Shown: piece by piece, positions 7,454 through 44,065 of the stretch | Position numbering within the stretch: the first letter of the stretch is position 1 | Layout: every line of letters starts with the position of its first letter | Source of the DNA: a virus | Direction: 5' to 3' (one strand) | Length of the DNA stretch: 63,135 nt | IMG/VR virus record: IMGVR_UViG_3300045934_000076 | Coordinates: 1 to 63,135 of that record | The notes under the pieces: model-generated | Told to the model about the DNA's origin: nothing | What the model saw: only the letters and a program-made list of their open reading frames with translations | Databases searched by the model: none | Program-made: the position numbers and the translations under genes

Positions 7454-7623
7454 TGAACCATCAGCTCTACGTTCGCACTCCACCCTGGACGAAGGAGTAC
7501 TTCATGGTCATTCGCGTCCGTCCTGAAGATCCAACGGAGGAACAGATGCCGATCTCTCGTGAAGGCATCGAGAAGTTCCTGAACGCTGGTGGCAAGGTTC
7601 ACTGGAATCCGGTCTGGAAGTGA
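7450..7623 (+). CDS. Small hypothetical protein, 57 aa
   Basis: A tight 57-residue gene with ATGA overlap upstream and GTGA overlap into the polymerase. The sequence begins MMNHQLYVRTPPWTKEYF and ends HWNPVWK. No motif is recognised, but the double overlap and coding-like composition support it as real. Confidence 0.6.
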   Translation: MMNHQLYVRTPPWTKEYFMVIRVRPEDPTEEQMPISREGIEKFLNAGGKVHWNPVWK

Positions 7624-9545
7624 AGAAGTACGGCATGCCGAACCGCGATCAGGGAAGTCTCATGGGCGTCATGAGACCGGAGAAGAAGCATCACTGGCGA
7701 CCAGGCGAATTCCCGAACCTCGACGGCGTAGACGAACTCGGCGCCGACTTCGAAGCTGATGGGCCTTGTCTCCAAGGGAAGCCCTGCACAGGAGGCCTTC
7801 GATGGTGGGATGATGCGAGGGCCATCGGTCTTTCACTGGCCTGGGGCGAAGGTGCGGACGAACGATCGTTCTACCTCCCGTGGGGCCACGTTGGCGGGAA
7901 CGTCGATCCTGAGAAGGCGAAAGCCTGGATCAGAGATACACTCCGCTACAAGAAGCTCTACTGGATCAACGGCTCGTACGACATCAACCTGGGCCATGCA
8001 TCAGGCATCGACTTCGAAGAGATGGAATGCTGGTCAGCCGACGTCGGCTTCTACGCTGCCCTCCTCGACGACCATCGTATGCGGTTCAACCTCGATTCAA
8101 TCTCTAAGGAATATCTTGGCTACGGCAAGAAGGAGTTGCCACAAGGATCGATCGAGCACATGTCGCAGCTCCATGCAGGTGAAGCCGAGGAGTACGCTCG
8201 CCACGATGCGCTCCTGAACTGGCGGCTCAGGCAGAAGATGTGGCCGATGATCCAGGAGGAAGAGCTCGAGGAGGTGGCTGAGCTCGAAGAGGAGGTCATC
8301 TACGCGACTTGTGCCATGGAGCGTGCTGGAGCACCGATAGACGTTCCCAAGCTCGAGCGATGGTGCAACGAAGTCGAGCAGATCCGTATGCGGCTGCTCA
8401 CTGACATCCAACGTGAGGTCGGGTTCCGCTTCGAGCCAACTCACCGTGACTCGAAGCTGAGACTGTTCAGAGAGCTGGGTCTTGAGAACCCGTTCCGGAC
8501 TGAGAAGAAGCAAGAGGAGAGTTTCACAGCGGACATTCTCTCGAGCTTTGACCATCCGACTGTTCAAAAGTGGTACCTCTACAATCTCTACACGTCCCTC
8601 GACAACAAGTTCCTGACGGGCTATCGCAAGCGTGTGGATCGCAATGGAATCCTTCGTTACTCGCTCCACCAGATGGCTTGTGAGGAAGGAGGCACAGTCT
8701 CAGGCCGGTATTCCAGTTCACGAATGACTGCCAGCGAAGGGATCAACGTCCAACAAGTCACGAAGCCGTCAAAGCAGAAGACGAGCTGGAAGAATCTCGA
8801 GAAGTATGCGAAGCTGGCTCCGTACATCAAGGAGTTCATCGTTCGTGAGCTGTTCATTCCTCAGTCTGGTCATTGGTTCAGCTCTGACGCGCGACAGATT
8901 GAGTATCGGCTCTTCGCCCACTATGCTAACACCGAAAACATCCTCCAGAAATATCGTGAAAACCCACTCACCGATTTCCACGCTGTTGTGATGGAGATGG
9001 TGCAGAAGACAAAGCAGATCAACCGTGATCGCACGAAGGACTTGAACTTCGCAAAGATCTACGGTGCTGGCATCAAGAAGATTGCATGGATGCTCGGGTT
9101 CAGACGTGCGAATGCTCCTGAAAGCAGTGACGAGGGAGTTGCTCAGGCCAAGCCCTTCGTTGAAGCTTACGACAAGGAATTTCCCGAAGCGAAGGCTCTT
9201 CTCTACGAAGCCAGCCAGATCGCCGAGAAGCGTGGCTACGTCAAGACCGTCCTCGGAAGGCGTGCTCGCTTCATTCGAGGAGCGTTCTCACACAAGGCAC
9301 TCAATCGCGTGATTCAGGGTGGCGCAGCGGACATCGCCAAGAAGAAGTCGGCTCGTCTCCATGCAACTCGCAAGGAGACTGGCCTCAAGCTTCGCTTTCC
9401 GATGCACGACGAGTTCTGCGGTGACATTCCCGACAGAGGAGCACTCGAGAAGGTCGCCAAGATCCTAGACGAACAGGACTACGATCTTCGCGTGCCCATC
9501 CTGTGGGACACGCGCATGGGACCGAACTGGAAGGAGGCAGCGTGA
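7620..9545 (+). CDS. Family A DNA polymerase with 3'-5' exonuclease
   Basis: A 641-residue replicative polymerase of the Pol I/T7 type. The N-terminal proofreading exonuclease has D-x-E (ADFEAD), NGSYD and YARHD for Exo I-III. Polymerase motif A is SSDARQIEYRLFA, motif B is RTKDLNFAKIYGAG, and motif C is MHDEF, all intact. The 5' nuclease domain is absent, as in T7. The GTG start overlaps the previous stop. If the phage uses a modified pyrimidine triphosphate, this is the enzyme that would incorporate it. Confidence 0.95.
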   Translation: MKKYGMPNRDQGSLMGVMRPEKKHHWRPGEFPNLDGVDELGADFEADGPCLQGKPCTGGLRWWDDARAIGLSLAWGEGADERSFYLPWGHVGGNVDPEKAKAWIRDTLRYKKLYWINGSYDINLGHASGIDFEEMECWSADVGFYAALLDDHRMRFNLDSISKEYLGYGKKELPQGSIEHMSQLHAGEAEEYARHDALLNWRLRQKMWPMIQEEELEEVAELEEEVIYATCAMERAGAPIDVPKLERWCNEVEQIRMRLLTDIQREVGFRFEPTHRDSKLRLFRELGLENPFRTEKKQEESFTADILSSFDHPTVQKWYLYNLYTSLDNKFLTGYRKRVDRNGILRYSLHQMACEEGGTVSGRYSSSRMTASEGINVQQVTKPSKQKTSWKNLEKYAKLAPYIKEFIVRELFIPQSGHWFSSDARQIEYRLFAHYANTENILQKYRENPLTDFHAVVMEMVQKTKQINRDRTKDLNFAKIYGAGIKKIAWMLGFRRANAPESSDEGVAQAKPFVEAYDKEFPEAKALLYEASQIAEKRGYVKTVLGRRARFIRGAFSHKALNRVIQGGAADIAKKKSARLHATRKETGLKLRFPMHDEFCGDIPDRGALEKVAKILDEQDYDLRVPILWDTRMGPNWKEAA

Positions 9546-9900: not shown

Positions 9901-10749
9901 ATGGACTTGACTGTGTTCATTCCGACTCGAGGGCGAATCGGGCTCAACAAGCAGATCACGCTGAGGGAGTTCCGTGATAAGCTCCCGAGCGTGAGGCCCA
10001 TCATCGTGTGTCCCGCGTACGAGGCACCCGAGCACTCGAAGTACTACGACTACGTCTGGCCGTGCCCTGTCGAAGGGATCGGGCCGACGCGGCAGTGGAT
10101 CATCGAGCAGTCGAAGACGAACGGAGTGCTGATGCTCGACGACGATCTGTACTTCAGCATGAGGGAGAACCCGTTCGAGCCGAGGCCTCTCATCCAATGC
10201 CACGATCTGGGGCCGCTGATGCAGTGGGTCAGCGATCAGCTGGATCGTGGCTACGTCCACGGAGGCATCAGCGCACGTCAGGGGAATCAGAACATTCTGT
10301 TCCCTTGGACCGACTGTCTCCGGGTCAACAACGCGCATCTGTTCAACCGCGACGTCTATCTTCGCGAGGGGATACGCTTCGACAGGCTCCCTGTGATGGA
10401 GGACTTCGACGTGACCCTGGGCCTCCTCGTGAGGGGCTACCCGAACCGCGTGGCGTACCACTACTGCTGGAGCCAGCGCGGCAGCGGGCTCTCAGGAGGC
10501 TGTTCGTCGTATCGCACGCCCGAAGTACAGGCCGAGGCGGCCGAGAAGCTGCATCAGCTCTACCCGCGCTTCGTTAAGATCGTGGAGAAGACCGCCATCA
10601 GTGGCGGCTCCGTCTTCGCGGGCAAGCCTCGCACCGACGTCAACATCTATTGGGTGAAGGCTTGGGAAGCCCGGACTCCACGCGACGGCCAGCCCGAGCC
10701 CTTCATCGGTCGGCAAGTTCCGATGAAGTTCCCTGACGAGGTGGAGTGA
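9901..10749 (+). CDS. TAGT-like GT-A glycosyltransferase
   Basis: A 282-residue protein with a GT-A-type nucleotide-sugar fold. IPTRGR occurs at 7-12, GPTRQW at about 61, LDDD (metal-binding DxD-like) at about 79-82, and MEDFDV at about 166. The IPTRGR plus LDDD pattern is like TET/JBP-associated glycosyltransferases (TAGT), which are proposed to glycosylate hydroxymethylated pyrimidines in phage DNA. It is immediately followed by a radical SAM gene and two further glycosyltransferases, favouring DNA-base decoration over cell-wall chemistry. Sugar and acceptor are unknown. Confidence 0.8.
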   Translation: MDLTVFIPTRGRIGLNKQITLREFRDKLPSVRPIIVCPAYEAPEHSKYYDYVWPCPVEGIGPTRQWIIEQSKTNGVLMLDDDLYFSMRENPFEPRPLIQCHDLGPLMQWVSDQLDRGYVHGGISARQGNQNILFPWTDCLRVNNAHLFNRDVYLREGIRFDRLPVMEDFDVTLGLLVRGYPNRVAYHYCWSQRGSGLSGGCSSYRTPEVQAEAAEKLHQLYPRFVKIVEKTAISGGSVFAGKPRTDVNIYWVKAWEARTPRDGQPEPFIGRQVPMKFPDEVE

Positions 10750-11003
10750 TGGCCATCGAAGCGATCACCCACTACGAAGTGACCTGCGACGAGTGCCAGG
10801 ATGTGCTCGTCGATGACGACGGCAGCATCCAGCTCTTCGAGAGCGAAGAAGAGGCCATTGTCGGCATGACCGACTACTCATGGATCCGTGAGAACGAAGG
10901 CACGGACCAAGAGCGCGTGATCTGCGACGGCTGTGCGGAGAACGCGGAAGAGGAGCACGAAGCTTCGAAGCTCGATGACGAAGAGGAGGACGACGATGAG
11001 TGA
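10749..11003 (+). CDS. Acidic zinc-ribbon protein
   Basis: An 84-residue protein with CDEC (14-17) and CDGC (59-62) spaced as a zinc ribbon, and a C-terminal tail of almost only Asp and Glu. TGATG coupling to the glycosyltransferase and overlap with the radical SAM gene place it in the modification cassette. DNA mimicry or protein interaction through the acidic tail is possible. Confidence 0.65.
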   Translation: MAIEAITHYEVTCDECQDVLVDDDGSIQLFESEEEAIVGMTDYSWIRENEGTDQERVICDGCAENAEEEHEASKLDDEEEDDDE

Positions 11004-12027
11004 CTATCGCCAAGATCCTCCGTACTCGCTTCAAGTCGAGCTCGTCGAGGGTTGTACTCTCGCGTGTGACTTCTGTGGCATCAACGGCATCCGCGAGAAG
11101 CCGGGCCTCTTCAAGTTCATGAAGCTCGACACGGCAATCCAGATCGCTTCGCAGGTGAAAGCGCTGGACTGGAATCCACGGATCGAATTCGCTATGCACG
11201 GGGAGCCGTCGCTTCACCCACAGCTCCTCATGATCGTCGACTCGTTCCGCACAATCCTGGGGCCTCACGCGTCGATCGTGATGTTCAGCAATGGCTCCGG
11301 CTTCCTGCCACGACCCGAGCTCATCGATGAGCTCCTCGACGCCGGCCTCAACACTCTGGGCCTCGACGCCTACGAGCACGTCAACATCGTGCCTCGTGTC
11401 ATGCGAGCCTATTCCGAACTGCCGGGCAAGAACCCGGTCTACTTCTATCCCGAGGACAAGACGCAGAACATGCACTCGGGACGTCGTGTCGGCCACAAGG
11501 ACGTAGTCGTGATCCAAGACATCTTGTCTGCCGAGGAGGGCAATCACGCCACACTCAACACTCACTGCGGCGGCGGGATGAAGCCCCCCGATGGGCTTCC
11601 TCTCAAGCGACGTTGTGCGAAGCCATTCAGGGAGCTGGCGATCCGGTGGGACGGCAACGTCGCGCTCTGCTGCAATGACTTTCGTGGCGAGTTCAAGGTC
11701 GGCAACATCATGGAGATCGGCATCGACGCCGTCTGGCAACATCCCCGTATGATGGCGGCCAGGGTCAAGCTGATGCAGAGCGATCGTGGCTTCAAACCGT
11801 GTGACAAATGCACGGCGCTGAGCATGCGAGTTGGTCTCCTTCCCGACTCGAAGGGCAAGCTCGTGCTCAACGATCCCACTCAAGAAGAGGAGATGCTTCT
11901 GCAAGAAGCCGTCGCCGGGCAGCCGTACACTCCCGTCGTTCTTCGGATGTGGGAGGTCGGGAGTGGGCCGCACAACCTCATCCCTGATCGCAAGAAGGCG
12001 CTCATGGACGCCATGAAGAGGAAGTGA
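10996..12027 (+). CDS. Radical SAM enzyme with SPASM/twitch-like C-terminus
   Basis: A 343-residue protein. The 4Fe-4S-binding C-x3-C-x2-C is at Cys20, 24 and 27 (GCTLACDFCG), followed by a TIM-barrel-like region with HGEPSLHP. The C-terminal part has RRCAKPF, ALCCND and CDKC, as in SPASM/twitch auxiliary cluster domains. ATG 10996 follows AGAGGAGGA. Radical SAM enzymes occur in thymidine hypermodification clusters such as that of Pseudomonas phage M6. The setting between glycosyltransferases and a MazG-like gene fits such a role, but the substrate cannot be read. Confidence 0.88.
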   Translation: MSDYRQDPPYSLQVELVEGCTLACDFCGINGIREKPGLFKFMKLDTAIQIASQVKALDWNPRIEFAMHGEPSLHPQLLMIVDSFRTILGPHASIVMFSNGSGFLPRPELIDELLDAGLNTLGLDAYEHVNIVPRVMRAYSELPGKNPVYFYPEDKTQNMHSGRRVGHKDVVVIQDILSAEEGNHATLNTHCGGGMKPPDGLPLKRRCAKPFRELAIRWDGNVALCCNDFRGEFKVGNIMEIGIDAVWQHPRMMAARVKLMQSDRGFKPCDKCTALSMRVGLLPDSKGKLVLNDPTQEEEMLLQEAVAGQPYTPVVLRMWEVGSGPHNLIPDRKKALMDAMKRK

Positions 12028-12491
12028 TGCCGAAGGACTACGCTTACGTCAGCAAGACCGACAAGGCTCGAGACGACGTTCTCGAGGAGTACCTCACCTG
12101 GGCACTCGAGACCTTCCCCGACGAGACCCTGATCCAGCAGGCGATCCATCTCGTGAAGGAGACTAAGGAGCTCGACGAGCTGGAGTCAAATGCTCCGGTG
12201 AAGGATCGTCACCGGCTCCTTGAAGAGCGCGCCGACGTGGCCTTCATCGCGGTCCTCATCGCGTGCCGCATCATCGAGCGGTGCCATGAAGAAGGGCTGG
12301 ACTGGGGCCTCATCCAAGCGATGGTGACCAAGCTGGATCGCAATCGTCGCCGTCGGTGGGCTCGCACTCCTGACGGCGACTATCAGCACGTATGCCAAGC
12401 CTGCGGCATCGCGCGCAAGGAGCACACGGGCATCGTACATCACTTCGTCGAGTTCAAGGAAGAACTCGGCCCCGTAGGAGGTGGAGCTTGA
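12027..12491 (+). CDS. MazG-like nucleotide pyrophosphohydrolase
   Basis: A 154-residue all-helical protein. The acidic motifs KETKELDEL and EERADVAFI match the E-x2-E ... E-x2-D metal site of MazG/dUTPase-2-type enzymes, which hydrolyse (d)NTPs to monophosphates. A C-terminal CQACG with following His could form an added zinc knuckle. TGATG coupling joins it to the radical SAM gene. It may remove an unwanted canonical dNTP so that a modified one is incorporated; the specificity is inferred only. Confidence 0.75.
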   Translation: MPKDYAYVSKTDKARDDVLEEYLTWALETFPDETLIQQAIHLVKETKELDELESNAPVKDRHRLLEERADVAFIAVLIACRIIERCHEEGLDWGLIQAMVTKLDRNRRRRWARTPDGDYQHVCQACGIARKEHTGIVHHFVEFKEELGPVGGGA

Positions 12492-13324
12492 GGGTGATCA
12501 TACCAACGCGAGGGCATCTACCTCGCATGAGGGCGCACAAGCTCTTCAAGCCGGGCGAGGTCTGCTTCGTGGTCGACGATGAAGCAACTCGTGAAAGACT
12601 GGCCCACGATGAGGAGTTCCAGAACGAGATCTACGTGAGTGGCATCCTGCGCAAGGACCACGGCCTCAGCACCATCGCCAAGATCCGAGACTTCATCAGC
12701 CAGGAGATTCTTGCTGATGGCGAGTGGGCGCTGCTCGTGGACGACAACATCGGTGAACTCACGCGTGTCAGCGACGAGTACTACCAGATGGAGATGATCC
12801 AGCATCTCCTTCCGGACCGTCCATCGCGCGAGTGGCGCCAGATCTTCGCCACTCCAGCAGATCCGTGGGAACTGGCGGCAGAGCTGAAGGCCAAGTGCGA
12901 AGAACTCGGCACGATCATGGGCGGACTGGCCGCCGAGCCGAACTACTTCTATCGCACGACGAAGTGGAGCATCGGGTCGTACACGAAGGCCAAGTTTGCT
13001 GTGTACCGCAACGACCGATCGCTCCCGTGGTACGCATTCAAGGACTGCATGTTCGAAGACTTCGTCATGACCGCCCAGGTCATCGCGAAGTATGGATGTG
13101 TCGCGAACAACCGCTTCGCTCGCATGGACAATCCCTACTTCGAACCGGGAGGGATCGGTTCGTACGCCGACCGTCATGACGCGATGATGCACGACTGCAA
13201 GTGGCTCGTCGAGCATTATCCGGGCCTCGTGAAGTACTACAAGGACAAGAAGTGCGCCGTGACGTTCAAGCTCCACACTCAGAAGTCAATCAACGCGTGG
13301 CGCATCTCGAACGGCTACGCCTGA
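12488..13324 (+). CDS. GT-A glycosyltransferase, TAGT-like paralogue 2
   Basis: A 278-residue protein beginning MRVIIPTRG from TTG 12488 (4-base overlap, preceded by GGAGGTGG); GTG 12494 is an alternative start. LLVDDN at about 82-87 is the likely metal/nucleotide-sugar motif, and CMFEDF occurs at about 187. The C-terminus ends in a basic, aromatic segment. It shares many blocks with the next gene (NYFxRTxKW, MFEDF, NRF, GGIG), so the two are tandem paralogues. A DNA-base acceptor is inferred from the cassette context. Confidence 0.72.
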   Translation: MRVIIPTRGHLPRMRAHKLFKPGEVCFVVDDEATRERLAHDEEFQNEIYVSGILRKDHGLSTIAKIRDFISQEILADGEWALLVDDNIGELTRVSDEYYQMEMIQHLLPDRPSREWRQIFATPADPWELAAELKAKCEELGTIMGGLAAEPNYFYRTTKWSIGSYTKAKFAVYRNDRSLPWYAFKDCMFEDFVMTAQVIAKYGCVANNRFARMDNPYFEPGGIGSYADRHDAMMHDCKWLVEHYPGLVKYYKDKKCAVTFKLHTQKSINAWRISNGYA

Positions 13325-13331
13325 GGTGATC

Positions 13332-14225
13332 ATGCTGACAGACGAACTTCGCGCACTCGCCCCGACGGTGATCATTGTGAGCCGTGCCCACGCTCCTCGG
13401 ATGCATGCTCACAACATCCTACTGGAGCAGGACTATCCGCGGTGGTTCATCGTCGTTGATGACAACGAGCAAGCTCATCGGTGTTCCGAGATGGGCATTC
13501 CCGATGCTCGCATCAAGGTCTGCTTCGTACAGAAGGCTGAGGTCCCGCCGATGGATCGACCTGCCTTTGCGAGGGAGTGGGCAGAGAAGAATCTAATCAA
13601 GAAGAGTGAGTGGTACGTCAGCCTCGATGACAACGTCCGCGGCTGGACGTGGCTGCCGGAACCGTACTACTCAATGGACTCCGTCAACACAGAGTTCACG
13701 CCAGAAGGATTCGGCACGAGGACATGGCGCGAGCTCTATGAGACCCCATGTCCATTCGAGCGCGTCGTCAAAGCCTGGATCGAGATGATCCATGAGTGCA
13801 TGGAATACGGGACCTGGGCGGGCGGACTCTCGATCGAGAACAATTACTTCTTCCGAACGAAGAAGTGGCAGCGACTCGGCTACGTCCGGGCACAGAACGC
13901 CATCTGGCTGAACACTGGCCTACCCTTCTACTACTGGAAGGGGAATATGTTCGAGGACTTCACGAGGAGCGTCGACGTCGTGGCGCGGACCGGTGGAGTC
14001 CTGATCAATCGCTTCCTCAAGCCGATCAAGACGGCGTTCGAGGAGGGCGGCATCGGTCACTTCGTTCAGCGAAAGCCGGAGCTGACAGCGGTCTGCGCTC
14101 GGCTCATGGAGATGTATCCCGGTCTCCTGACCCCGGTCAAGGGACGCGACTACTCGCTGTCTTTCGCCATGCACAGCGACAAGTCGGTGCGAGCATGGCG
14201 GGAGAAGCACGGGTATCTGTCATGA
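13332..14225 (+). CDS. GT-A glycosyltransferase, TAGT-like paralogue 3
   Basis: A 297-residue protein. SLDDN at about 97 replaces the LVDDN of its neighbour. Shared blocks are ENNYFFRTKKW, NMFEDF (about 205), NRF and EEGGIGHF. The N-terminal strand is VIIVSRAHAPRM instead of the IPTRGR type. ATG 13332 is chosen over GTG 13326 because GAGGTG lies just upstream; both are possible. Two successive paralogues could add two sugars or serve different acceptors. Confidence 0.7.
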   Translation: MLTDELRALAPTVIIVSRAHAPRMHAHNILLEQDYPRWFIVVDDNEQAHRCSEMGIPDARIKVCFVQKAEVPPMDRPAFAREWAEKNLIKKSEWYVSLDDNVRGWTWLPEPYYSMDSVNTEFTPEGFGTRTWRELYETPCPFERVVKAWIEMIHECMEYGTWAGGLSIENNYFFRTKKWQRLGYVRAQNAIWLNTGLPFYYWKGNMFEDFTRSVDVVARTGGVLINRFLKPIKTAFEEGGIGHFVQRKPELTAVCARLMEMYPGLLTPVKGRDYSLSFAMHSDKSVRAWREKHGYLS

Positions 14226-14353
14226 GTGAACCCCTCACGTGGCTCGGGGTTCTGGTCTTGGCCATGACCTTCGTGAACTTCATGATACTCGGTTTCAATC
14301 TCAAGCTCTACACCGAGATCATGAAGGAGAAGTCTCATCGGGACAGGAGATAG
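14222..14353 (+). CDS. Single-span membrane peptide
   Basis: A 43-residue protein starting ATGA over the previous stop. Residues 7-30 form a hydrophobic span (LGVLVLAMTFVNFMILGFNL), followed by a basic tail ending KSHRDRR, giving an N-out, C-in prediction. The function is unknown. Confidence 0.6.
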   Translation: MSEPLTWLGVLVLAMTFVNFMILGFNLKLYTEIMKEKSHRDRR

Positions 14354-14355
14354 AC

Positions 14356-14931
14356 ATGATTCTCACGCCTCGCGTCCACGGCAACGGTTTCGTTCAGCTT
14401 GATCTCACCGACAAGTTCCGGCTCAACATCTGGGGCCACTGTGACATCCCTCGGCAGAAGATCGGCACGCAGATTCACGACCATCGCTTCGCCTTCCGCA
14501 GTCGGGTACTTCTCGGCCAGCTCGGCAATCTGCGATGGAGGTACACGCAGACCAGCCGATTCGGGAGCCACGAGATCTATCACGCACGACCTCGCGTCGG
14601 CGAAGACACCGAGCTGATACCGACCGGCGACTGTGTCGATCTGTTCAACGATGGCAAGCCCGAGGTCTACGGTCCCGGCGATACGTACTTCATGAACATC
14701 GCCGAGCTCCATGAGAGTGTCGTCATGGGACTGGCTGTCACTCTCATCGAGAAGATCAACGTGGCTCCGCAGCACGAACCTCGTATCTTCGTCGAACGTG
14801 GCAAGCAGCCGGATAACGACTTCGTCCGTCATGAGGCTCTGCCCGAAGACAAGCTCTGGCAGATCGTCATCGACGTGCTCAAGAACGCAGACATCCGGGG
14901 ATCGATCATCTCGAGAATCGATGGCATCTAG
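14356..14931 (+). CDS. Cupin-fold protein
   Basis: A 191-residue protein. GTQIHDHRFAFRS (about 40-52) matches cupin motif 1 with H-x-H. YGPGDTYFMNIAELHES (about 98-114) matches motif 2 with P-G and His. Cupins bind a metal and include dioxygenases, isomerases and decarboxylases. It lies between the glycosyltransferases and the base-hypermodification gene, so it may act on the modified nucleotide or sugar. An RmlC-like epimerase role is equally possible. Confidence 0.65.
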   Translation: MILTPRVHGNGFVQLDLTDKFRLNIWGHCDIPRQKIGTQIHDHRFAFRSRVLLGQLGNLRWRYTQTSRFGSHEIYHARPRVGEDTELIPTGDCVDLFNDGKPEVYGPGDTYFMNIAELHESVVMGLAVTLIEKINVAPQHEPRIFVERGKQPDNDFVRHEALPEDKLWQIVIDVLKNADIRGSIISRIDGI

Positions 14932-15017
14932 CTGCTGTCTCATGTGCCGAGGCGACTGTCGCCCCGGTAACGAATGTCGCTGTCATTGGTACGAAGACCC
15001 ACTCTATGGAGGGAAGC

Positions 15018-15482
15018 ATGAGTATCTTGTTGTCTCTGGTCCTAGCTTCAAACTTGCAGAGCCTCGAGCCGCCGAAACAGGAGATCTGTCAACCGAAAAC
15101 CCCGAAAGCCCACGTCGGCTCGATCGTGATCTTCGTGCAGTACATCGCTCCGTACAAGGGCCAGAAGTGGGCAGCTCTGATGATCGAAGACCCGAGGGAG
15201 TGCCCACCGAACTCCCCGGAGTGGTGGAAGGACTGTGCCAACCTCAAGATCTGGAAGCGCGAACTCAGCCAGAGCGAGAACCCGACGGTCGTCCTCGGTC
15301 CCGATGAACAGCCGCGTAACTGCGAGATCATCGATGGCCAGAGCAAGTGCGATCACGTCTACACCGGCGATGACAACAAGATCGGCGTGCCTCACGATCC
15401 AACTGGCACCGAGGGACGCTCTTGGCACATTTGGGGCGAAGCTCCCGACGAGCAAGATCCACAAGTCACGCCGCAGAATTAG
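15018..15482 (+). CDS. Hypothetical protein, possibly secreted
   Basis: A 154-residue protein. ATG 15018 follows GGAGG at 5 bases. The first 14 residues are hydrophobic (MSILLSLVLASNLQ) but lack the usual basic start, so export is uncertain. Four Cys and many Pro, Trp and Asp lie in the mature part. Between 14932 and 15017 a Cys-rich frame (ATG 14921, CCLMCRGDC) is open but would overlap this gene heavily, so I do not call it. It is the last gene before promoter P2. Confidence 0.6.
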   Translation: MSILLSLVLASNLQSLEPPKQEICQPKTPKAHVGSIVIFVQYIAPYKGQKWAALMIEDPRECPPNSPEWWKDCANLKIWKRELSQSENPTVVLGPDEQPRNCEIIDGQSKCDHVYTGDDNKIGVPHDPTGTEGRSWHIWGEAPDEQDPQVTPQN

Positions 15483-15483
15483 C

Positions 15484-15512
15484 TTGCTTTAGTTGCTAAC
15501 TTATGGTATAAG
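15484..15512 (+). promoter_or_regulatory. Promoter P2, shared-core family
   Basis: A -35 TTGCTT (15484-15489), 17-base spacer and extended -10 TGG-TATAAG (15504-15512). The 17-base core GTTGCTAACTTATGGTA is shared with P1 and P3. The predicted start is only about 6 bases before GTG 15525, so the transcript of the hypermodification gene would be nearly leaderless. The AAGGAG at 15510 overlaps the -10 and would serve as a ribosome site only on read-through transcripts. Confidence 0.72.
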
Positions 15513-15524
15513 GAGCTTCCCACC

Positions 15525-16385
15525 GTGCAACTCATCAATCAGTTCTTCGCAACGGCTCGTGAGCGATTCAACATCATGATCAACAAAGACGCTGGCCGTC
15601 CGCGTGAAGAATGGACGAACGATCCCGTCTTCAAGAAGTGGCGCTTCTGCAACGTCCATCGTGAGCACGACAAGACCACTCAGTGGTTCCGTGAGAACGT
15701 CCGCAATCATGTCGGCGGATGGGGCGCGGTGCAAGCAACGATCGCCTTTCGCTGGTTCAATCGCATCGAGACCGCAGAGAAGATCGTGCATCTGCTGACT
15801 GATGGATGGGACTCCGAGGAGGCCCGTGAGCTCCTCGAAGGAACTCGCCCTGTCGTGAACGGAGCCTACATCATTCTCGGCCAACAGGGATACGACAAGC
15901 TGGAGGGCGTGATTCGTTGCATCGACATGGCCTTGGAGAGACTCCATCGTAAGATGGACGACGAGGCTCATGAGATGTGGGAACTGTGGGGCGAATCGCT
16001 TCAGGGATGTTGGAGCGATCTACGTGAGCTGCCCTATGTGGGCCGCTTCATGGCCTACGAGTTCGTCACCGACTTGCGCCACACCGATGTGTTGAACAGG
16101 GCCAACGACATCATGACTTGGGCTTCGGCTGGCCCCGGCTGCGCACGAGGCCTTGGCTGGGTCATGAACGACAATCCGACGACCTTCAACTACGGCTCGC
16201 AGACCGATCAAGCCGAGATGACGGAAATCATGCGCGAGATCCTGCTCCTGTCAGAAGAAGATCACTTCTGGCCTCTCGACTGGAAGCCCAGATGGGAGAT
16301 GCGCGAGGTCGAGCATTGGGCCTGCGAGTTCGACAAGTACAAGCGAGCCGAGCGCGGTGATCGCATGAAGAGGAGCTACAAGTGA
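15525..16385 (+). CDS. DNA base hypermodification protein, HMUDK_hel/aGPT-PPlase-like
   Basis: A 286-residue protein. The N-terminal block ARERFNIMINKDAG (11-24), W-T-N-D-P (30-34) and RFCNVHRE (40-47) is characteristic of the 5-hmdU DNA kinase helical-domain family (earlier aGPT-PPlase clade 1). Those proteins occur with thymidine hypermodification systems. The family is known to accompany conversion of 5-hydroxymethyl-dU in phage DNA. No P-loop kinase domain is fused here and none is seen elsewhere, so this helical module stands alone. It has its own promoter and lies 0.6 kb before a thymidylate-synthase-like gene. Confidence 0.8.
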   Translation: MQLINQFFATARERFNIMINKDAGRPREEWTNDPVFKKWRFCNVHREHDKTTQWFRENVRNHVGGWGAVQATIAFRWFNRIETAEKIVHLLTDGWDSEEARELLEGTRPVVNGAYIILGQQGYDKLEGVIRCIDMALERLHRKMDDEAHEMWELWGESLQGCWSDLRELPYVGRFMAYEFVTDLRHTDVLNRANDIMTWASAGPGCARGLGWVMNDNPTTFNYGSQTDQAEMTEIMREILLLSEEDHFWPLDWKPRWEMREVEHWACEFDKYKRAERGDRMKRSYK

Positions 16386-16504
16386 CCGTCATCAGCCCCA
16401 AGTGCGGCGAGTGCGGGAACAAGGAGTCCTTCATCTGCGGCTTCTGCCTCAAGTACTTCTGCAAGGAGTGCAAGGCGAAGCACGTCTGCGGTGGGATCAA
16501 GTGA
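16382..16504 (+). CDS. 40-residue zinc-finger protein
   Basis: A GTG start overlaps the previous stop. CGEC, CGFC, CKEC and HVC give four metal-ligand pairs in 30 residues, resembling a cross-brace or AN1-like double zinc knuckle. It is very small, but overlaps at both ends and the ordered Cys spacing make it convincing. Confidence 0.65.
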   Translation: MTVISPKCGECGNKESFICGFCLKYFCKECKAKHVCGGIK

Positions 16505-16578
16505 CGCCGAAGGAGCGCGTCGGCTGCTTGATCATGCTGAGTATCCTCTTCCTGGCCTGTTGGAGGGCTTGCGTATGA
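16501..16578 (+). CDS. 25-residue membrane peptide
   Basis: A GTG start overlaps the preceding stop region, and the stop overlaps the next ATG (ATGA). MTPKERVG leads into a hydrophobic span LIMLSILFLACW. Such micro-membrane proteins are common in phages; the function is unknown. Confidence 0.45.
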   Translation: MTPKERVGCLIMLSILFLACWRACV

Positions 16579-16790
16579 CCGGCAGTCGGTGGTTTCCAAC
16601 TCCTGAAGAGATCGCACGTGATCGGGAGCGGAGCCGTCGACTTCGAGAGGCCCTCAAGCCGGTTCTTCTTAGCATTCAAGCTCGTCGAGTTCTCGACGTT
16701 CTATCCGGACGTCAACTGCCTCGTGGCGGGACTGGTAGTACGCGCGGGTCGTCGCCATCATCTGGCAATGGTGGGGAAGGCGGCTCGTAG
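16575..16790 (+). CDS. Small Arg-rich protein
   Basis: A 71-residue protein with ATGA coupling. The N-terminal half is a basic amphipathic helix (EEIARDRERSRRLREALK). The C-terminus is a low-complexity Gly/Ser tail. Its stop codon lies inside the tRNA-like element that follows. No family is recognised. Confidence 0.55.
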   Translation: MTGSRWFPTPEEIARDRERSRRLREALKPVLLSIQARRVLDVLSGRQLPRGGTGSTRGSSPSSGNGGEGGS

Positions 16791-16856
16791 ATCAATGGGA
16801 CGCCGTGTGCCAGCGCGGTCCAGCGATCTTGCAGGTTCGAATCCTGCCGAGGCAAC
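16779..16856 (+). pseudogene. tRNA-like element, probably degenerate
   Basis: The 3' half is textbook: T-stem GCAGG/CCTGC around the loop TTCGAAT (16829-16845), a 7-base acceptor strand, discriminator A and encoded CCA at 16854-16856. The 5' half keeps T8-A9 and a D-loop AATGGGA with A14, GG and A21. The D-stem pairs only 2 of 4, the acceptor 5 of 7 and the anticodon stem 4 of 5, and position 33 is A instead of T. I read it as a decayed tRNA or an attP-like remnant. The stop codon of the upstream gene overlaps its 5' end. Confidence 0.45.
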
Positions 16857-16881
16857 CATCTGTCAAGAACCGAATCATGAA

Positions 16882-17040
16882 GTGAGCCGACGTGCTCTCA
16901 AGAAGCTTCAAGAGGCTCTCGATAAGCATCATTTCAAGATCAACGACGTGAAAGTCGCCCTGCGCGGTCCACTCACTCGAATGAAGAACAGCCCCGGCAT
17001 TTGTCCCTTCTGCAACAGGAGCTATGATGCGCGTCCTTGA
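16882..17040 (+). CDS. Small CPFC-ending protein
   Basis: A 52-residue protein starting at GTG 16882. The N-terminal half is a basic helix, then CPFC near residue 43. It overlaps the next gene by 14 to 17 bases, depending on that gene's start. The function is unknown. A start further upstream would enter the tRNA-like element. Confidence 0.5.
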   Translation: MSRRALKKLQEALDKHHFKINDVKVALRGPLTRMKNSPGICPFCNRSYDARP

Positions 17041-18085
17041 AGTCTACAACGTTCACGCGGCTTTGCCGAGAGGTCTAAGGCTCCTCGAAGAGGAAGGCTA
17101 CGACGCTCCCTCACGCGTCGGCGATGTGCGAGTAGCTCCCTTCGCCGTCTGCACCTCGTATCTCCGTCCCTCACAGAAGGTGGTCCTGTGGCCGCAGCGG
17201 GACTACAATGTCGCCTTCGCCCTCTACGAAGCGCTGTGGATGCTGGCAGGGCGTCGCGACACGAAGCCGCTTGACCGCTACGTCCACGATTACACGTCAC
17301 GGTTCAGCGACGACGGCAAGAATCAACATGGAGCATACGGTCATCGATGGAGGTACTACGCTCTCGATCAGCTCGAGATGATCGCTGATCAGCTCAAGAA
17401 GAATCCGCAAGACAGGCGCTGCGTCCTCCAGATGTGGGACGTAGTCGCCGACCTCGGCTTCACAGGCAAGGACGTCCCGTGCAACACGATCGCCACCTTC
17501 CAACGAGGCAAGGACAGCGAGCTCAACCTGCACGTCTTCTGTCGCAGCAACGACATCATCTACGGAGCCTACTACGCGAACGCTTTCCACTTCGCGACCC
17601 TCCTCGAGTACATGGCGTCATGGATCGGATGTCCGGTCGGACGCTACGAACAGATCAGCGTCAACTATCACGCTTACAAGGACGTGATGGCGAAGATGAG
17701 CAAGCTCCCGAGGAGCGGTGGCGACTATCTCTCCAGCGATCCGTATTACGTCGGTGAAGTGTTGCCGACTCCACTCCCCTCTTATCACTCGTGGTGCGAC
17801 GTCATGATCCATGAGCTGCTCGGGCTGGCCGACGAGGGATTCGAGCGAGGCCGGCGTGGCGGTAGCAGTGATCTGTTCTTCGCGACAGCCGAGCGTGTCC
17901 TCTACGCCCATCACCTCTGGCGTACTCTCGAGGCTCCATCCAAGTACATCGAAGCCATCAGGGTCCTTGACGAAGTTCCTGCTCTTCAGCATCAGGACCT
18001 GACGGTCTCGATGCGTGAGTGGATCGTTCGTCGCAAGGATGCGTATCTCGCGAAGCTCGTCGTTGATCACAACGAGGGGGAGTGA
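17027..18085 (+). CDS. Thymidylate synthase-superfamily enzyme (possible dUMP hydroxymethylase)
   Basis: A 352-residue protein. The nucleophilic Cys is in DVPCNTIATF (about 152). RSNDIIYGAY-x-ANAFHF carries the Asn that contacts the uracil base in ThyA, whereas dCMP hydroxymethylases carry Asp there, so dUMP is the likelier substrate. ISVNYHAY is the C-terminal dUMP-binding block. The sequence is divergent from cellular ThyA and of the type found in phages with hypermodified thymine. In this context, 5-hydroxymethyl-dUMP synthesis is attractive, but plain dTMP synthesis cannot be excluded. AGGAG precedes ATG 17027 at 5 bases. Confidence 0.82.
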   Translation: MRVLEVYNVHAALPRGLRLLEEEGYDAPSRVGDVRVAPFAVCTSYLRPSQKVVLWPQRDYNVAFALYEALWMLAGRRDTKPLDRYVHDYTSRFSDDGKNQHGAYGHRWRYYALDQLEMIADQLKKNPQDRRCVLQMWDVVADLGFTGKDVPCNTIATFQRGKDSELNLHVFCRSNDIIYGAYYANAFHFATLLEYMASWIGCPVGRYEQISVNYHAYKDVMAKMSKLPRSGGDYLSSDPYYVGEVLPTPLPSYHSWCDVMIHELLGLADEGFERGRRGGSSDLFFATAERVLYAHHLWRTLEAPSKYIEAIRVLDEVPALQHQDLTVSMREWIVRRKDAYLAKLVVDHNEGE

Positions 18086-18543
18086 TGAAGGAATCCGCTT
18101 TGCCATGTTATCGCTGCAAGCACGACACTGAGAACTGTATCTGTGAGGACATGTGTGCTTGTGGTCACGTTCGACGTCATCATCGTTCCAATGGCAAATG
18201 CGCGACGAACGACTACAAAACACAGCGAGCTCACTGTCAGCAGTTCGTTCCGATCTGTTCACGATGCAAGAAGGTCCTTGAGGACTGTGGCTGCGACGGT
18301 CTTCAGCCGGTTCTAAAGGAGGCGGTGGACCATCCCTCGCACTACGGCGGCGACGTCGTTCACGAGCACATCAAGTGCATCACGGCATGGGGAATCGACA
18401 ACGACTATCGCCTGGGCCAAGCTACAAAGTACATCTGCAGAGCCGGCAAGAAGCCGGGAGCCGATGCTCTGGAGGATCTGAAGAAGGCCCTCTGGTATCT
18501 CCAGAGCAAGATCGAGAAGCTCGAGAAGGAAAGAACCTCATGA
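18085..18543 (+). CDS. DUF3310 protein with N-terminal zinc fingers
   Basis: A 152-residue protein. The C-terminal 65 residues contain VDHPSHYG, then KCITAWGID and QATKYICRAGKK, the nucleotide kinase-like signature of DUF3310, common in phages. The N-terminal 70 residues hold many Cys and His (CYRC, CICEDMCACGH, CSRC, CGC) suggesting two or three zinc sites, an unusual extension. TGATG coupling links it to the thymidylate-synthase-like gene, consistent with nucleotide metabolism. Confidence 0.78.
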   Translation: MKESALPCYRCKHDTENCICEDMCACGHVRRHHRSNGKCATNDYKTQRAHCQQFVPICSRCKKVLEDCGCDGLQPVLKEAVDHPSHYGGDVVHEHIKCITAWGIDNDYRLGQATKYICRAGKKPGADALEDLKKALWYLQSKIEKLEKERTS

Positions 18544-25016: not shown

Positions 25017-25451
25017 ATGAACAACGAATGCACTCTTGCTCTCATCAAGCCCGACGCCCTCCGTCGTGGGCTCCTCGGAAGGATCATCGAGGTTATCGAG
25101 AGCAACGACTTCACCATCGTTCACATGCAGAGCCTTCACATGACCCTCGTTCAGGCTCAGCTGTTCTACGGACGTCAGCATCAAGGCCGTCCGTATTTCG
25201 AAGAGCTCACCGAGTTCATGTCCTCTGGGATGTGCGTCGGCTTGATCTTGGCGCACGCTGAGACAGAACCGATCTCCGCCTGGAGGCAGTTGATGGGAGC
25301 GGCTCAGCCTGAGAAACGCCTGCCGAGCGAGATCCGCCATCGCTTCGGTTTCAACGGTGCCAGGATGTGCGAGAACCTCGTTCACGGCAGCGACTCCATC
25401 GAGAGCTTCGAGCATGAGATCGAGGCACTCGGCTGGCGCAATCGTCGGTGA
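25017..25451 (+). CDS. ndk: Nucleoside diphosphate kinase
   Basis: A 144-residue protein that converts NDPs to NTPs. LALIKPDAL at the start holds the conserved Lys, and NLVHGSDS carries the phosphate-accepting His at about 123. The length and order match cellular Ndk. In a genome with a possible hydroxymethyl-dUMP pathway it would help deliver the modified triphosphate, although it is generic. It follows the structured region at 24796. Confidence 0.95.
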   Translation: MNNECTLALIKPDALRRGLLGRIIEVIESNDFTIVHMQSLHMTLVQAQLFYGRQHQGRPYFEELTEFMSSGMCVGLILAHAETEPISAWRQLMGAAQPEKRLPSEIRHRFGFNGARMCENLVHGSDSIESFEHEIEALGWRNRR

Positions 25452-39214: not shown

Positions 39215-40291
39215 ATGTATCACGTCAGCAAACCTTCGCTCACGGTCTATGAGGAGGAGGCCGTCCTCTCTGTCATCCGACGGCGATGGATCACTCACGG
39301 CCCGGAGGTTGAAGCTTTCGAGAAGGAACTCGCGTCACGTCTCGGGACGCGATACGTGGTCGCGTGTTCCTCGGGGACTTCAGCGCTGCATCTCGCACTC
39401 GCGGCTGCAAAGATCGGTGATGGTGACGAGGTGCTCGTTCCTGACATCACCTATGTCGCATCGGCGAACGCGGTCAGGTACGTCGGCGGTGAGGTGGTTC
39501 TTGTTGATGTGGACCCCATCACTTGGACTATCGACCTCGAGGATGCAAAACGCAAGCTCAGTGAGAACACTCGGGCGATCATGCCGGTTCACATCTACGG
39601 TGTGCCGTGCAACATGACCGAGATCACGCAGTTCGCGCTGGCGCACAGGCTCGACATCGTCGAAGACGCTGCCGAGGCCGTTGGCGCATCGTGGCGAGGT
39701 CGTGCTTGCGGCACCATCGGCGACTTCGGTTGCTTCAGCTTCTACGGCAACAAGGTCATCACGACCGGCGAAGGTGGAGCAGTGATCTGCCGTTCGAAGA
39801 CTGACTACGATCGTGCTCGGCTCCTTCGTGGTCAGGCCCAGGGCAAGCGTCGGTTCTATCATGAGGAAGTCGGGTTCAACTATCGCTTGACGGATCTGCA
39901 GGCAGCCGTCGGTCGCGCTCAGCTTCGGCGGGTCGACGACTTCCTGCAGAGGCGTCGAGCAGTCTGCGAGTTCTATCGTGGGAGCACAGGCAAACTCCTT
40001 GAAGCGCCGACTCAGGGACCAGATGGCGTGATCGCGCCATGGATGTTCACGGGCGTGTTGCCACCGGGAGTCAAGCGCGATCTCGTCATGCGTCAGCTTC
40101 GAGACCGAGGGGTCGAGACGAGGCCGACGTTTGTACCACTTCACAGACTGCCGATGTATCGTGAGAACGACTCGGAGTTTCCAGTCGCTTGCGTCATCGG
40201 TGATTCGGGCATCAGTCTTCCAACGTATCCAGACATGACCGCCAAGGACGCGGAGAACGTGGTCAAGCTGCTCGAGGAGTGCATCTCATGA
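39215..40291 (+). CDS. DegT/DnrJ/EryC1 PLP-dependent sugar aminotransferase
   Basis: A 358-residue protein. SSGTSALHLAL is the phosphate loop, DAAEAVGA is the cofactor-binding Asp block, and FYGNKVITTGEGG has the PLP-binding Lys. Such enzymes aminate keto-sugar nucleotides, for example dTDP-3-keto-6-deoxyhexose. The overlapping acyltransferase downstream is the usual partner for making N-acylated amino sugars. Sugar epimerase or dehydratase genes are absent, so the keto sugar must come from the host. Confidence 0.9.
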   Translation: MYHVSKPSLTVYEEEAVLSVIRRRWITHGPEVEAFEKELASRLGTRYVVACSSGTSALHLALAAAKIGDGDEVLVPDITYVASANAVRYVGGEVVLVDVDPITWTIDLEDAKRKLSENTRAIMPVHIYGVPCNMTEITQFALAHRLDIVEDAAEAVGASWRGRACGTIGDFGCFSFYGNKVITTGEGGAVICRSKTDYDRARLLRGQAQGKRRFYHEEVGFNYRLTDLQAAVGRAQLRRVDDFLQRRRAVCEFYRGSTGKLLEAPTQGPDGVIAPWMFTGVLPPGVKRDLVMRQLRDRGVETRPTFVPLHRLPMYRENDSEFPVACVIGDSGISLPTYPDMTAKDAENVVKLLEECIS

Positions 40292-40836
40292 GCGCAGAAC
40301 AACAGGAAAGATGCCGGCAGTTCCTGGAGGATCAGATGAACCTCGATGAGCTGCTGTCTCCGGGGCCAGCCATCTTCTACGAACCGATCGTGAAGACCGG
40401 TGATCTGTCGCGGCTGTTCGTAGGTGATGGCTCACGCATCGACACATGGGTCAAGCTCGAGATCGGTCTCGGGTTGCACATCGGGAAGTACGTCCACATC
40501 GCGAGCTTCGCACATCTCGGCATCGGCGGAGGGATGACCGTGATCGAAGACTACGCGGCCGTCGCGAGTGGCGGCAAGATCATCTCCGGAAGCAACGCCG
40601 TCTACGCAGTCACGATGAGCGCGTGTGCCCCGAAGGACATGCAACGCGTCGAGAAGACCCTTACGACTCTGAAGAAGTACGCGACGGTCCTCACGAACGC
40701 TGTCGTACTGCCCGGAGTCACGCTCGGCGAGGGAGCTGTGCTCGCTGCTGGCGGCGTCGCAACGAAGGACATCCCCGCGTGGGAGATCTGGGGCGGAGTG
40801 CCTGCCAAGTTCCTGGCGAAGAGGATCATCGGGTGA
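40288..40836 (+). CDS. Left-handed beta-helix (hexapeptide) acyltransferase
   Basis: A 182-residue protein coupled by ATGA. Hexad-like repeats (IGKYVHIASFAHLGIGG, TVLTNAVVLPGVTLGEGAVL) and a final WGGVPAKFLAKR are typical of trimeric sugar N- or O-acetyltransferases; HIASFAH may provide the catalytic His. With the aminotransferase it resembles the QdtB/QdtC type of pair. Confidence 0.85.
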   Translation: MSAEQQERCRQFLEDQMNLDELLSPGPAIFYEPIVKTGDLSRLFVGDGSRIDTWVKLEIGLGLHIGKYVHIASFAHLGIGGGMTVIEDYAAVASGGKIISGSNAVYAVTMSACAPKDMQRVEKTLTTLKKYATVLTNAVVLPGVTLGEGAVLAAGGVATKDIPAWEIWGGVPAKFLAKRIIG

Positions 40837-41516
40837 ACGTAGTCGTTGGATCGGCGTTCAGGAACAGCGAGTGGGTGATCTCGTCCTACTTCGACAGAGT
40901 CGCCCGCCTTCAGAGCCTCCTCGGATGTAACATCCGTGTGATCGCAGCCGAGGGCGATTCAACGGACGATACTCGCCAGAAGATCATCAACATGCGGAGT
41001 CACGGCTTCACGATCGAACTGCCAGACTGTTCACACGGTCAGCGATGGTTCGGTTCGACCGAGGAGCCTGATCGCATGAAGGCTCTGTCTCGTGTTGGCA
41101 ATGCGATCTTCGAGTCGGTCACACCCGACGACGACTACTTGGTCTATGTCGAGAGTGATCTCTACTGGCACGCCAACGTGATCGCGGCTCTGGTCGAGAA
41201 CGCGGTGCAACGAACGGAGGGCTTCGACGTCTTCTCTCCACTCGTCATGGCCGGTGATGCGTTCTACGACATCTGGGGATTTCGCAAGAACGGTCAGCGA
41301 TTTGGGCCGTTCCCTCCGTATCATCCGAGCCTGTGCTTCACATCGGGACGTGTCACTGAAGTGGACAGCGTCGGTTCTTGCTTGGTGATGCGCAGTGAAG
41401 TCGCCAGACGGGCACGCATTCGCAACGACTACTGTCTGGTGGGATGGTGCGAAGACGCGAGGAGACAGGGATACAGGATCGGAGTCAGGACGGACATCTC
41501 GGTGAGGCAAGCGTGA
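40833..41516 (+). CDS. Glycosyltransferase, GT-A type
   Basis: A 227-residue protein, GTGA coupled. The N-terminal VNVVVGSAFRNSEWV, the AEGDSTDDTR block, and VYVESDLYWHAN (DxD-like) are typical of GT2/Anp1-like GT-A enzymes; CEDARRQGYRIG lies near the end. It would transfer a sugar made by the adjacent genes. The target could be virion protein, host surface or DNA. Confidence 0.75.
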   Translation: MNVVVGSAFRNSEWVISSYFDRVARLQSLLGCNIRVIAAEGDSTDDTRQKIINMRSHGFTIELPDCSHGQRWFGSTEEPDRMKALSRVGNAIFESVTPDDDYLVYVESDLYWHANVIAALVENAVQRTEGFDVFSPLVMAGDAFYDIWGFRKNGQRFGPFPPYHPSLCFTSGRVTEVDSVGSCLVMRSEVARRARIRNDYCLVGWCEDARRQGYRIGVRTDISVRQA

Positions 41517-42373
41517 GAGTTCTGGTCGATCCACTTCGTGCGATGTCGGCGGCCATGGATCGGGTCGCACTCGCTCTCAAGAAGAACGCTCCTGCCGACG
41601 TGACGTTCACGAAGGACTTGCGCGATGCTGAGCTGGCGGTCCTTCACGTGATCGGAACGGATGCAGTCGAGTTCGCGAGCAAGCTCACCATCCCTTATGC
41701 TGTGATCCAGTACTGTTGCCAGCCTCGGACGACCGAAGCATGGCATCACCTGTGGTATGACTCGGTCCTCACGTGGAGCTACTATGACCTGTCGAAGATC
41801 ATGCCTGTCGGTGCTTCGTACATGCACGCTCCTCTCGGCTGCGATCCGTTGACGTTCGGGCTCGGTCGCAATGGCCGGTTCATCGGAGCTGTCACGTCCG
41901 GATACGTCGCAGGTCCTGGTGCCGAGGCCATCGAGGAGATGGCCGAAGCCTGTCAGCGACTCGGCATGGATGTGATTCACGTCGGGCCGATGTTCATCGA
42001 GGGCATGAGAACGCGACGAGAACCGACGTGGTGCTCCCGACAGGGGATCTCCGACCCCGAGCTATCGAGCATCTATCGCAGCTCGAAGTGGGTGTCGGGC
42101 CTCAGGTTCGGCGAGGGCTTCGAGCTGCCGGCTCTCGAAGGCTTGCTCAGCGGATGTCGTCCCATCCTGTTCGACAGGGACGACGCTCGAGAGTGGTACA
42201 ACGGTCATGCGGTCTTCGTTCGGGAGTGTTCTGGTGAGCCTCTCATCGAGCAGCTCATGCAAGTGATGGCTCAGCCTCCGGAGCCTGTGACCGAAGAGGA
42301 ACGCTCGGTGATCGCCGAGAGGTTCTCCTGGCCTCGCATCGCGGGTGAGTTCTGGGGGAAGGTGCTGTCGTGA
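41513..42373 (+). CDS. Glycosyltransferase, GT-B (GT4-like)
   Basis: A 286-residue protein starting GTG in a 4-base overlap. The C-terminal half has YRSSKWVSGLRFGEGFELPALEGLLSG in family terms: GEGFELPALE corresponds to the nucleotide-sugar E-x7-E motif of GT4. The N-terminal lobe is short (about 110 residues). It is coupled to the lysin gene downstream, showing the block belongs to the late operon. Confidence 0.78.
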   Translation: MRVLVDPLRAMSAAMDRVALALKKNAPADVTFTKDLRDAELAVLHVIGTDAVEFASKLTIPYAVIQYCCQPRTTEAWHHLWYDSVLTWSYYDLSKIMPVGASYMHAPLGCDPLTFGLGRNGRFIGAVTSGYVAGPGAEAIEEMAEACQRLGMDVIHVGPMFIEGMRTRREPTWCSRQGISDPELSSIYRSSKWVSGLRFGEGFELPALEGLLSGCRPILFDRDDAREWYNGHAVFVRECSGEPLIEQLMQVMAQPPEPVTEEERSVIAERFSWPRIAGEFWGKVLS

Positions 42374-42963
42374 AGCAAGACTATCCGTCGGATGCAAGCT
42401 TCGCCGCAGCCGCTTGGATGTTGAGCTGCGAAGTGGCCTCAATCAAAGCTGTGACTCGCGTCGAGTCGGGACCACTCGGTGGCTTCCTCGATGACGACAC
42501 TCCAGTCATTCTGTTCGAGCGTCACTTGTTCCATCGTTTGACCGGTGGGAAGTACGATGCGGTCAAGCTTTCGACCACGAAACCGGAGCACTCGTTCCTT
42601 TCGATGGTCACGCCGGGAGGGTATGGCCCATCGTCGCTTCAGCACGCGAAGCTGGCAGCGGCTGCACTCTTGGATCGGGATGCTGCTTTGAAGTCCTGTT
42701 CGTGGGGTCTGTTCCAGATCTTGGGCTTGAACTTCGAACGTGCCGGATTCCAGAGACTTCAGCGGTTCATCAACGCGATGTACCGCAGCGTCGACGATCA
42801 CCTGCGCGCGTTCGTGAACTTCGTGCAGAGCGACGAGTCGTTGGCCGATGCGATTCGCACAAAGAACTGGCCATCGTTCGCGCGTCAGTACAACGGTCCG
42901 GCTTACGCGAAGAACAAGTACGACGAGAAGCTCGCCGAAGCCTACTTGAAGGAGCAGCCATGA
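42370..42963 (+). CDS. N-acetylmuramidase-type endolysin (DUF3380-like)
   Basis: A 197-residue protein that hydrolyses peptidoglycan glycan strands. AVTRVESGP holds the likely catalytic Glu, followed by ILFERHLFHRLT and SWGLFQILGLN, all typical of the muramidase family. No signal peptide or separate binding domain is present, so a holin is needed. The membrane proteins at 44769 and 45239 are candidates. Confidence 0.87.
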   Translation: MKQDYPSDASFAAAAWMLSCEVASIKAVTRVESGPLGGFLDDDTPVILFERHLFHRLTGGKYDAVKLSTTKPEHSFLSMVTPGGYGPSSLQHAKLAAAALLDRDAALKSCSWGLFQILGLNFERAGFQRLQRFINAMYRSVDDHLRAFVNFVQSDESLADAIRTKNWPSFARQYNGPAYAKNKYDEKLAEAYLKEQP

Positions 42964-43469: not shown

Positions 43470-43478
43470 GGAGGGAAC

Positions 43479-44057: not shown

Positions 44058-44065
44058 GAGGGGCC

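Follow-up and report, generated by a model that had tools for sequence, protein, structure and literature searches.

A predicted phage thymidine-hypermodification operon that recurs across IMG/VR and pairs TAGT-family glycosyltransferases with a BtrN-like radical SAM enzyme

A predicted thymidine-type hypermodification cassette in an IMG/VR virus record

The IMG/VR virus record IMGVR_UViG_3300045934_000076 (63,135 bp; its full length is hereinafter designated the window) is of class linear and may therefore be a fragment; it encodes terminase, portal and capsid genes. On its + strand, at 7.6-18.5 kb, lies a cassette that starts with polA, ends with a DUF3310 gene and contains a dUMP-type thymidylate synthase (TS) homologue, an HMUDK_hel protein (hereinafter designated hel), TAGT-family glycosyltransferases (GTs) and a BtrN-like radical S-adenosylmethionine (SAM) enzyme (Table 1). 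This gene set is a real, recurrent version of phage thymidine hypermodification, and apparently an undescribed one; the literature searched, which left out key primary papers, yielded no description of TAGT partnered by a BtrN-like radical SAM enzyme. No near relative of the first 25 kb of the record was found among 50,697 phage records.

All genes that an earlier note on this DNA had assigned to a pyrimidine hypermodification cassette are present on the + strand, at or very near where it had placed them, and the TAGT at 9901, the radical SAM enzyme, hel and the TS homologue exceed the curated Pfam cut-offs. The DUF3310 protein, the nucleoside diphosphate kinase (NDK) and polA, which were outside its list, are likely further members.

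Table 1. Genes of the cassette and associated features in the window
Feature	Coordinates	Strand	Evidence and predicted role
DNA polymerase A (polA)	7620..9545	+	PF00476 E 1.6e-39; predicted to incorporate hmdUTP
TAGT-family glycosyltransferase 1	9901..10749	+	PF20691, phrog_842; predicted hmdU glycosyltransferase; DDD motif D80-D82
BtrN-like twitch radical SAM enzyme	10975..12027	+	radical SAM + SPASM Pfam; predicted oxidation/epimerisation of DNA-linked sugar
Possible MazG-like nucleotide pyrophosphohydrolase (weak)	12024..12491	+	PF04447 E 0.009, below cut-off
TAGT-like glycosyltransferase gtA	12488..13324	+	paralogue of gtB; hhalign to TAGT
TAGT-like glycosyltransferase gtB	13326..14225	+	hhalign to TAGT; AlphaFold2 model matches in BFVD
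Protein without assigned function ("cupin" in the earlier note)	14356..14931	+	phrog_4784 8.7e-21 (function unknown); no Pfam match
HMUDK_hel (aG/PT-PPlase clade-1-type) helical protein	15525..16385	+	PF18723 2e-35; predicted base-flipping partner
dUMP-type thymidylate synthase homologue	17024..18085	+	PF00303 E 2e-22; predicted dUMP hydroxymethyltransferase
DUF3310 protein	18082..18543	+	PF11753 5e-11; frequent neighbour, present in 33 loci
Nucleoside diphosphate kinase (NDK)	25017..25451	+	PF00334 1.9e-36; possible hmdUDP -> hmdUTP step

The TS homologue and the hel protein

The TS homologue matches phrog_5131 (6e-85) and is 42% identical to M6 gp58 and 38% to PaMx11 gp51, cellular ThyA being merely a distant match. 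Its dUMP-type Asn, which the earlier note had recognised (start given as 17027), is N186, identical in 91/91 gap-free TS rows of the group that carries TAGT/radical SAM genes. Because the catalytic C153, N186 and other TS residues are identical between TS proteins of this type and those of the kinase type, both are expected to use uracil. The pyrimidine hypermodification cassette proposed earlier is supported, as a thymidine-type and uracil-specific one. That the homologue is instead an ordinary thymidylate synthase, with the DNA unmodified or modified at another base, is highly improbable: it shares its Pfam family with ThyA and its activity towards 5-hydroxymethyl-deoxyuridine (hmdU) is a prediction, but it groups with the M6/PaMx11 enzymes (38-43% identity) and accompanies hel, a family known from hypermodification.

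Hel is 44-46% identical to PaMx11/Ab18 HMUDK_hel and falls clearly inside this family, rather than outside it, the outcome named beforehand as speaking against the cassette. The first 20 PDB fold matches of its AlphaFold2 model (pLDDT 95) consist entirely of HhH-GPD DNA glycosylases and glycosylase homologues, at probabilities up to 0.98 and E > 0.1, which gives a lead towards a glycosylase-like base-flipping protein. Two marine contigs carry hel and TS with neither kinase nor TAGT, and the gene directly upstream of hel in them (L047:9153-9998, L065:8979-9947), a SAM-dependent methyltransferase by Pfam in L047, may represent a third type of tailoring partner. That hel accompanies kinases, GTs or, in these two contigs, another upstream gene points to a role as a partner that does not depend on the kinase. 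Single-protein viral scans with hel or gtB as the query found no relatives.

Comparison with known hypermodification systems

Profiles built from PaMx11, Ab18, M6, Sonora and ViI proteins detected no P-loop 5-hmdU DNA kinase in the record, and no amino-acid:DNA transferase (aGPT-PPlase2), flavin adenine dinucleotide (FAD) lyase, pyridoxal phosphate (PLP) enzyme or M6-type radical SAM protein (M6 gp53 profile) in the window. HMUD2 and TET/JBP dioxygenases, the latter a point of difference from TET/JBP-dependent systems, were looked for in the record and are absent. With TS and hel present and the kinase, transferase and tailoring enzymes absent, the window has the first part of the known pathway without its middle. 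The lack of a kinase and of TET/JBP that the earlier note had remarked on is thus true of this record, and its proposed "activation on DNA" step is left without support, the kinase being seen in just 2/55 related lineages.

One of the closest known systems is that of PaMx11/Ab18 (Abidjanvirus) gp46-gp51, which have the polA neighbourhood in common with the window besides similar hel and TS proteins. PaMx11, however, has a kinase (gp49), an amino-acid transferase (gp46), an FAD enzyme (gp47) and an acetyltransferase (gp48), whereas the window has TAGTs and the BtrN-like enzyme instead, and none of the kinase, gp46 and gp47 profiles finds a match in it. Records of the closest cultured phages place hel between the kinase gene and the TS gene and call the kinase "terminase small subunit" or "nucleotide kinase"; the former label stands in RefSeq on the putative 5-hmdU DNA kinases PaMx11 gp49, Ab18 gp12, M6 gp54 and ViI Vi01_061c. 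Pseudomonas phage M6 and Salmonella phage ViI (5-NedU, 5-NeOmdU), in which hmdU is modified post-replicatively (PMC6449724), likewise have a dUMP-type TS and hel, but M6 uses the kinase gp54, aGPT-PPlase2 gp51, the PLP enzyme gp52 and a different radical SAM protein, gp53, and has no TAGT match. Measured against M6/PaMx11-type systems, the window therefore has the dUMP-type TS and the clade-1 HMUDK_hel and lacks the P-loop kinase, aGPT-PPlase2 and the tailoring enzymes. Pelagiphages of the HTVC023P type carry TS, a clade-1 hel (aG/PT-PPlase1) and a beta-glucosyl-HMC-alpha-GT-like gene near polA (PMC9599517), as the window does, but a radical SAM gene is not reported there.

Two genes to which the earlier note had given a part, the MazG-like gene (12027) and the cupin (14356), are present, and we rejected both as core members because they are not conserved in other loci. 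The MazG-like match is weak, and the cupin assignment is without Pfam support.

Glycosyltransferases and the radical SAM enzyme

The TAGT at 9901 scores 41.2 bits (E 2e-10) against a curated PF20691 cut-off of 27.5 and matches phrog_842 (beta-glucosyl-HMC-alpha-glucosyltransferase) at 2e-38; D81 and D82 are invariant and D80 nearly invariant in 16 homologues. GtA and gtB have no Pfam match. They are paralogues (34% identity), their profile aligns with that of TAGT (hhalign 98.3%, E 2e-14), and the gtB AlphaFold2 model (pLDDT 78) matches TAGT-domain proteins in BFVD, so that the earlier count of three TAGT-like GTs probably stands. The match of the gtB model in this viral structure library is to TAGT-domain proteins and not to cell-envelope enzymes, which covers in part the grouping that had been named as a counter-indication. 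PDB sequence and fold searches with gtB and TAGT gave nothing significant.

The characterised T2/T6 beta-glucosyl-HMC-alpha-glucosyltransferase (PF20691) resembles the window enzyme in family and DNA substrate, but acts on already glucosylated hydroxymethylcytosine, i.e. adds a second sugar (PMC13216743). Eight contigs of 50-69 kb carry a minimal operon with a single TAGT and match neither the GT1 nor the GT2 family; since they contain no other recognisable transferase, the TAGT there most likely glycosylates hmdU directly. We know of no radical SAM partner of the T2/T6 enzyme. L160 and L179 are without TAGT and have another GT-like gene (weak PF00534) beside the radical SAM gene. The family fam10, read as GT4 on account of its position beside the radical SAM gene where TAGT is missing, matches nothing significantly in Pfam, PHROG or PDB and is retained as a candidate only.

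The radical SAM protein (10975/10996) has radical SAM and SPASM Pfam matches (1e-10 and 2e-12), and its profile finds BtrN in the PDB at 1.4e-23, the next solved structure following at 3e-5. Eight cysteines are invariant in 57/57 sequences: C27, C31 and C34 form the radical cluster motif (CX3CX2C), C214, C232, C276 and C279 occupy the positions anticipated for the four ligands of the auxiliary cluster in a twitch domain, and C233 is an extra cysteine beside an auxiliary ligand, where the aligned BtrN residue is Phe. BtrN, from butirosin biosynthesis, has a twitch domain and oxidises DOIA, a cyclitol amine (PMC9012708), and the twitch epimerases NeoN and HygY have the same architecture; these enzymes differ from the phage family in acting on aminoglycosides or their precursors. 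For HygY, a related epimerase, the title of a work cited in PMC10991966 reports latent dehydrogenase activity upon mutation of one cysteine; if the analogy holds, C233 might donate the hydrogen in an epimerase reaction. The similarity suggests a BtrN-like enzyme of sugar or cyclitol chemistry, tied to glycosyltransferases rather than to amino-acid tailoring. The protein had no match at E <= 1e-4 among the 50,697 phage records, and one pattern-based scan of ~85,000 genomes, a limited test, found no cellular relative.

A recurrent operon nearly exclusive with the kinase

Two scans, with the hel alignment and with the radical SAM protein, gave 130 loci, and a third, profile-based scan added 48 new ones (hel in 43, TS in 46, TAGT in 43, kinase in 1). 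Removal of redundancy left 55 radical SAM lineages from IMG/VR. A TAGT-like GT lies within 3 kb in 45 of them and TAGT or fam10 in 49; TS is found in 48, hel in 44 and the kinase in 2. The commonest gene order is hel-TAGT-radical SAM-TS-polA, with polA adjoining the operon in 39/55 lineages. The "new mix of enzymes" claimed in the earlier note thus does differ from the M6, ViI and TET sets, but it is a compact operon recurring across IMG/VR and not a one-off.

TAGT and kinase are nearly exclusive. In 87 dereplicated hel contigs, TAGT occurs in 0/35 of those with a kinase (Fisher p 5e-10); the exclusion persists when the hel scan, whose contigs were not selected for radical SAM, is taken by itself (p 0.0015), and a whole-record kinase search was positive for 0/37 TAGT/radical SAM contigs versus 13/13 kinase contigs serving as positive control. 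A phylogeny of 81 hel proteins requires at least six changes of the TAGT/radical SAM state on well-supported branches, and one supported six-member clade holds the window and L009 (both with TAGT and radical SAM), three kinase contigs and one TAGT contig. Window-type and kinase-type cassettes have therefore been swapped repeatedly.

These distributions bear on two other roles for the radical SAM enzyme. It might tailor the base or an amino-acid substituent, as the M6 isomerase does, with the GTs acting separately. In known thymidine hypermodification a radical SAM enzyme reportedly acts on an amino-acid-substituted base (Lee et al. 2022), and L012 pairs the radical SAM protein with a kinase and no TAGT; we nevertheless regard this as unlikely, given that amino-acid:DNA transferases and FAD/PLP tailoring enzymes occur in 0/100 radical SAM loci, that the gene is within 3 kb of TAGT or fam10 in 49/55 lineages, that the M6 gp53 profile has no match in the window and that the closest solved relative works on a cyclitol. 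Quite unlikely, too, is a scheme in which the thymidine genes yield hmdU DNA only and the task of TAGT and the radical SAM enzyme is to build a nucleotide-sugar or to modify glycans of the virion or cell surface. Their repeated position inside the hel-TS-polA operon argues against it, as do the membership of TAGT in a family that, where tested, glycosylates DNA (PMC13216743) and the best viral structure matches of gtB, which are TAGT-domain proteins. Such a scheme would accord with sugar handling by this phage outside the cassette: interspersed with the structural genes at 39215-46904 are further GTs and a LegC/PseC-like DegT aminotransferase. DegT, however, is not enriched alongside the module (2/28 versus 2/18).

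Proposed pathway and its implications

From the gene content, homology, linkage and repeated exchange observed here we infer the substrates and chemistry of a pathway that probably amounts to kinase-free thymidine hypermodification, in which hmdU is incorporated, glycosylated on DNA by TAGT and the sugar then oxidised or epimerised by the radical SAM enzyme. The TS homologue would convert dUMP to 5-hydroxymethyl-dUMP (hmdUMP), as its homology to the M6/PaMx11 enzymes and its Asn suggest; NDK or host kinases would phosphorylate hmdUMP and polA would incorporate the product. Hel may present hmdU on DNA to the transferase, the weakest of the steps, and TAGT would join a sugar to the hydroxymethyl group itself, bypassing any phosphorylation, in keeping with the absence of the kinase. 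The BtrN-like enzyme is predicted, from its family, cysteines and tight GT linkage, to abstract a hydrogen from the sugar, leading to oxidation, or to epimerisation if Cys233 returns a hydrogen. We place it after glycosylation because the radical SAM gene is nearly always beside a GT while TAGT occurs without it in 7 loci. More speculatively, gtA and gtB may add further sugars in this phage. The glycosylated product would shield phage DNA from host nucleases.

Several observations weigh against this pathway. The characterised T2/T6 TAGT attaches a second sugar onto an existing one, not a first; kinship to BtrN fixes neither reaction nor substrate, twitch/SPASM enzymes being diverse; and the hel fold matches all have E values above 0.1. 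A phylogeny-controlled pair (sign) test, in which the kinase and TAGT differences run opposite to each other in every pair, has four supported pairs only and cannot reach 0.05. L174:6369-13057 combines a kinase with hel, TAGT, radical SAM and TS, possibly as an intermediate or dual system; besides the kinase and radical SAM pairing in L012, contig L014 has a kinase with three sub-threshold TAGT-like matches, and TS is missing from some TAGT and radical SAM records. No cultured member was found, and the base and sugar chemistry is predicted from the genes.

If the pathway is correct, the known M6/ViI branch (phosphorylated base, amino acids) has been swapped for a GT and a sugar-active radical enzyme with the TS/hel front end kept. 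Radical carbohydrate chemistry on DNA would be new to biology, HMUDK_hel would be more than a kinase accessory, the testable minimal set would comprise the four genes hel, TAGT, radical SAM and TS, with polA as an optional fifth, and new substrates would be predicted for host enzymes that attack modified DNA. Whether the operon marks a widespread undescribed class appears to us evenly balanced. In such a class an hmdU-linked sugar would be remodelled in place by radical SAM chemistry, supplemented in some lineages by second GTs, an FkbM methyltransferase and possibly sulfation; hel would be a general hmdU-presenting subunit working with kinases or GTs in turn.

Accessory genes and other observations

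An FkbM-type methyltransferase (L096:6219-6950, PF05050 9e-8) is encoded within the operon, flanked by TAGT and by homologues of gtA/gtB. L115 has an APS kinase (10975-11586, PF01583 1.7e-57) beside TAGT and radical SAM genes, and sulfotransferase-looking proteins without database support are found at L115:9237-10019 and L092:8202-9014; a sulfated DNA sugar is possible. The assignments of fam33 as a sulfotransferase and of L091:9175-9837 as an LmbE-like deacetylase were made by eye, lack database support and were set aside. L117:10983-14351 joins DNA polymerase III alpha and a uracil-DNA glycosylase domain in one protein near TAGT/radical SAM genes; members of this family also occur in L115, L118, L120, L122, L129 and L130, and several of these records are without TS.

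Elsewhere in the window, a DegT/LegC-like aminotransferase (39215-40291), a weak GT2-like protein (40833-41516) and a GT4-like protein (45747-46904) are encoded among head and tail genes, unlinked to the cassette; the aminotransferase was rejected as a partner of the BtrN-like enzyme on the whole-record counts given above. Near the record end (58527-60658) lie a phrog_249 protein ("porphyrin biosynthesis", ATPase-like) and an adjoining phrog_1909 protein.

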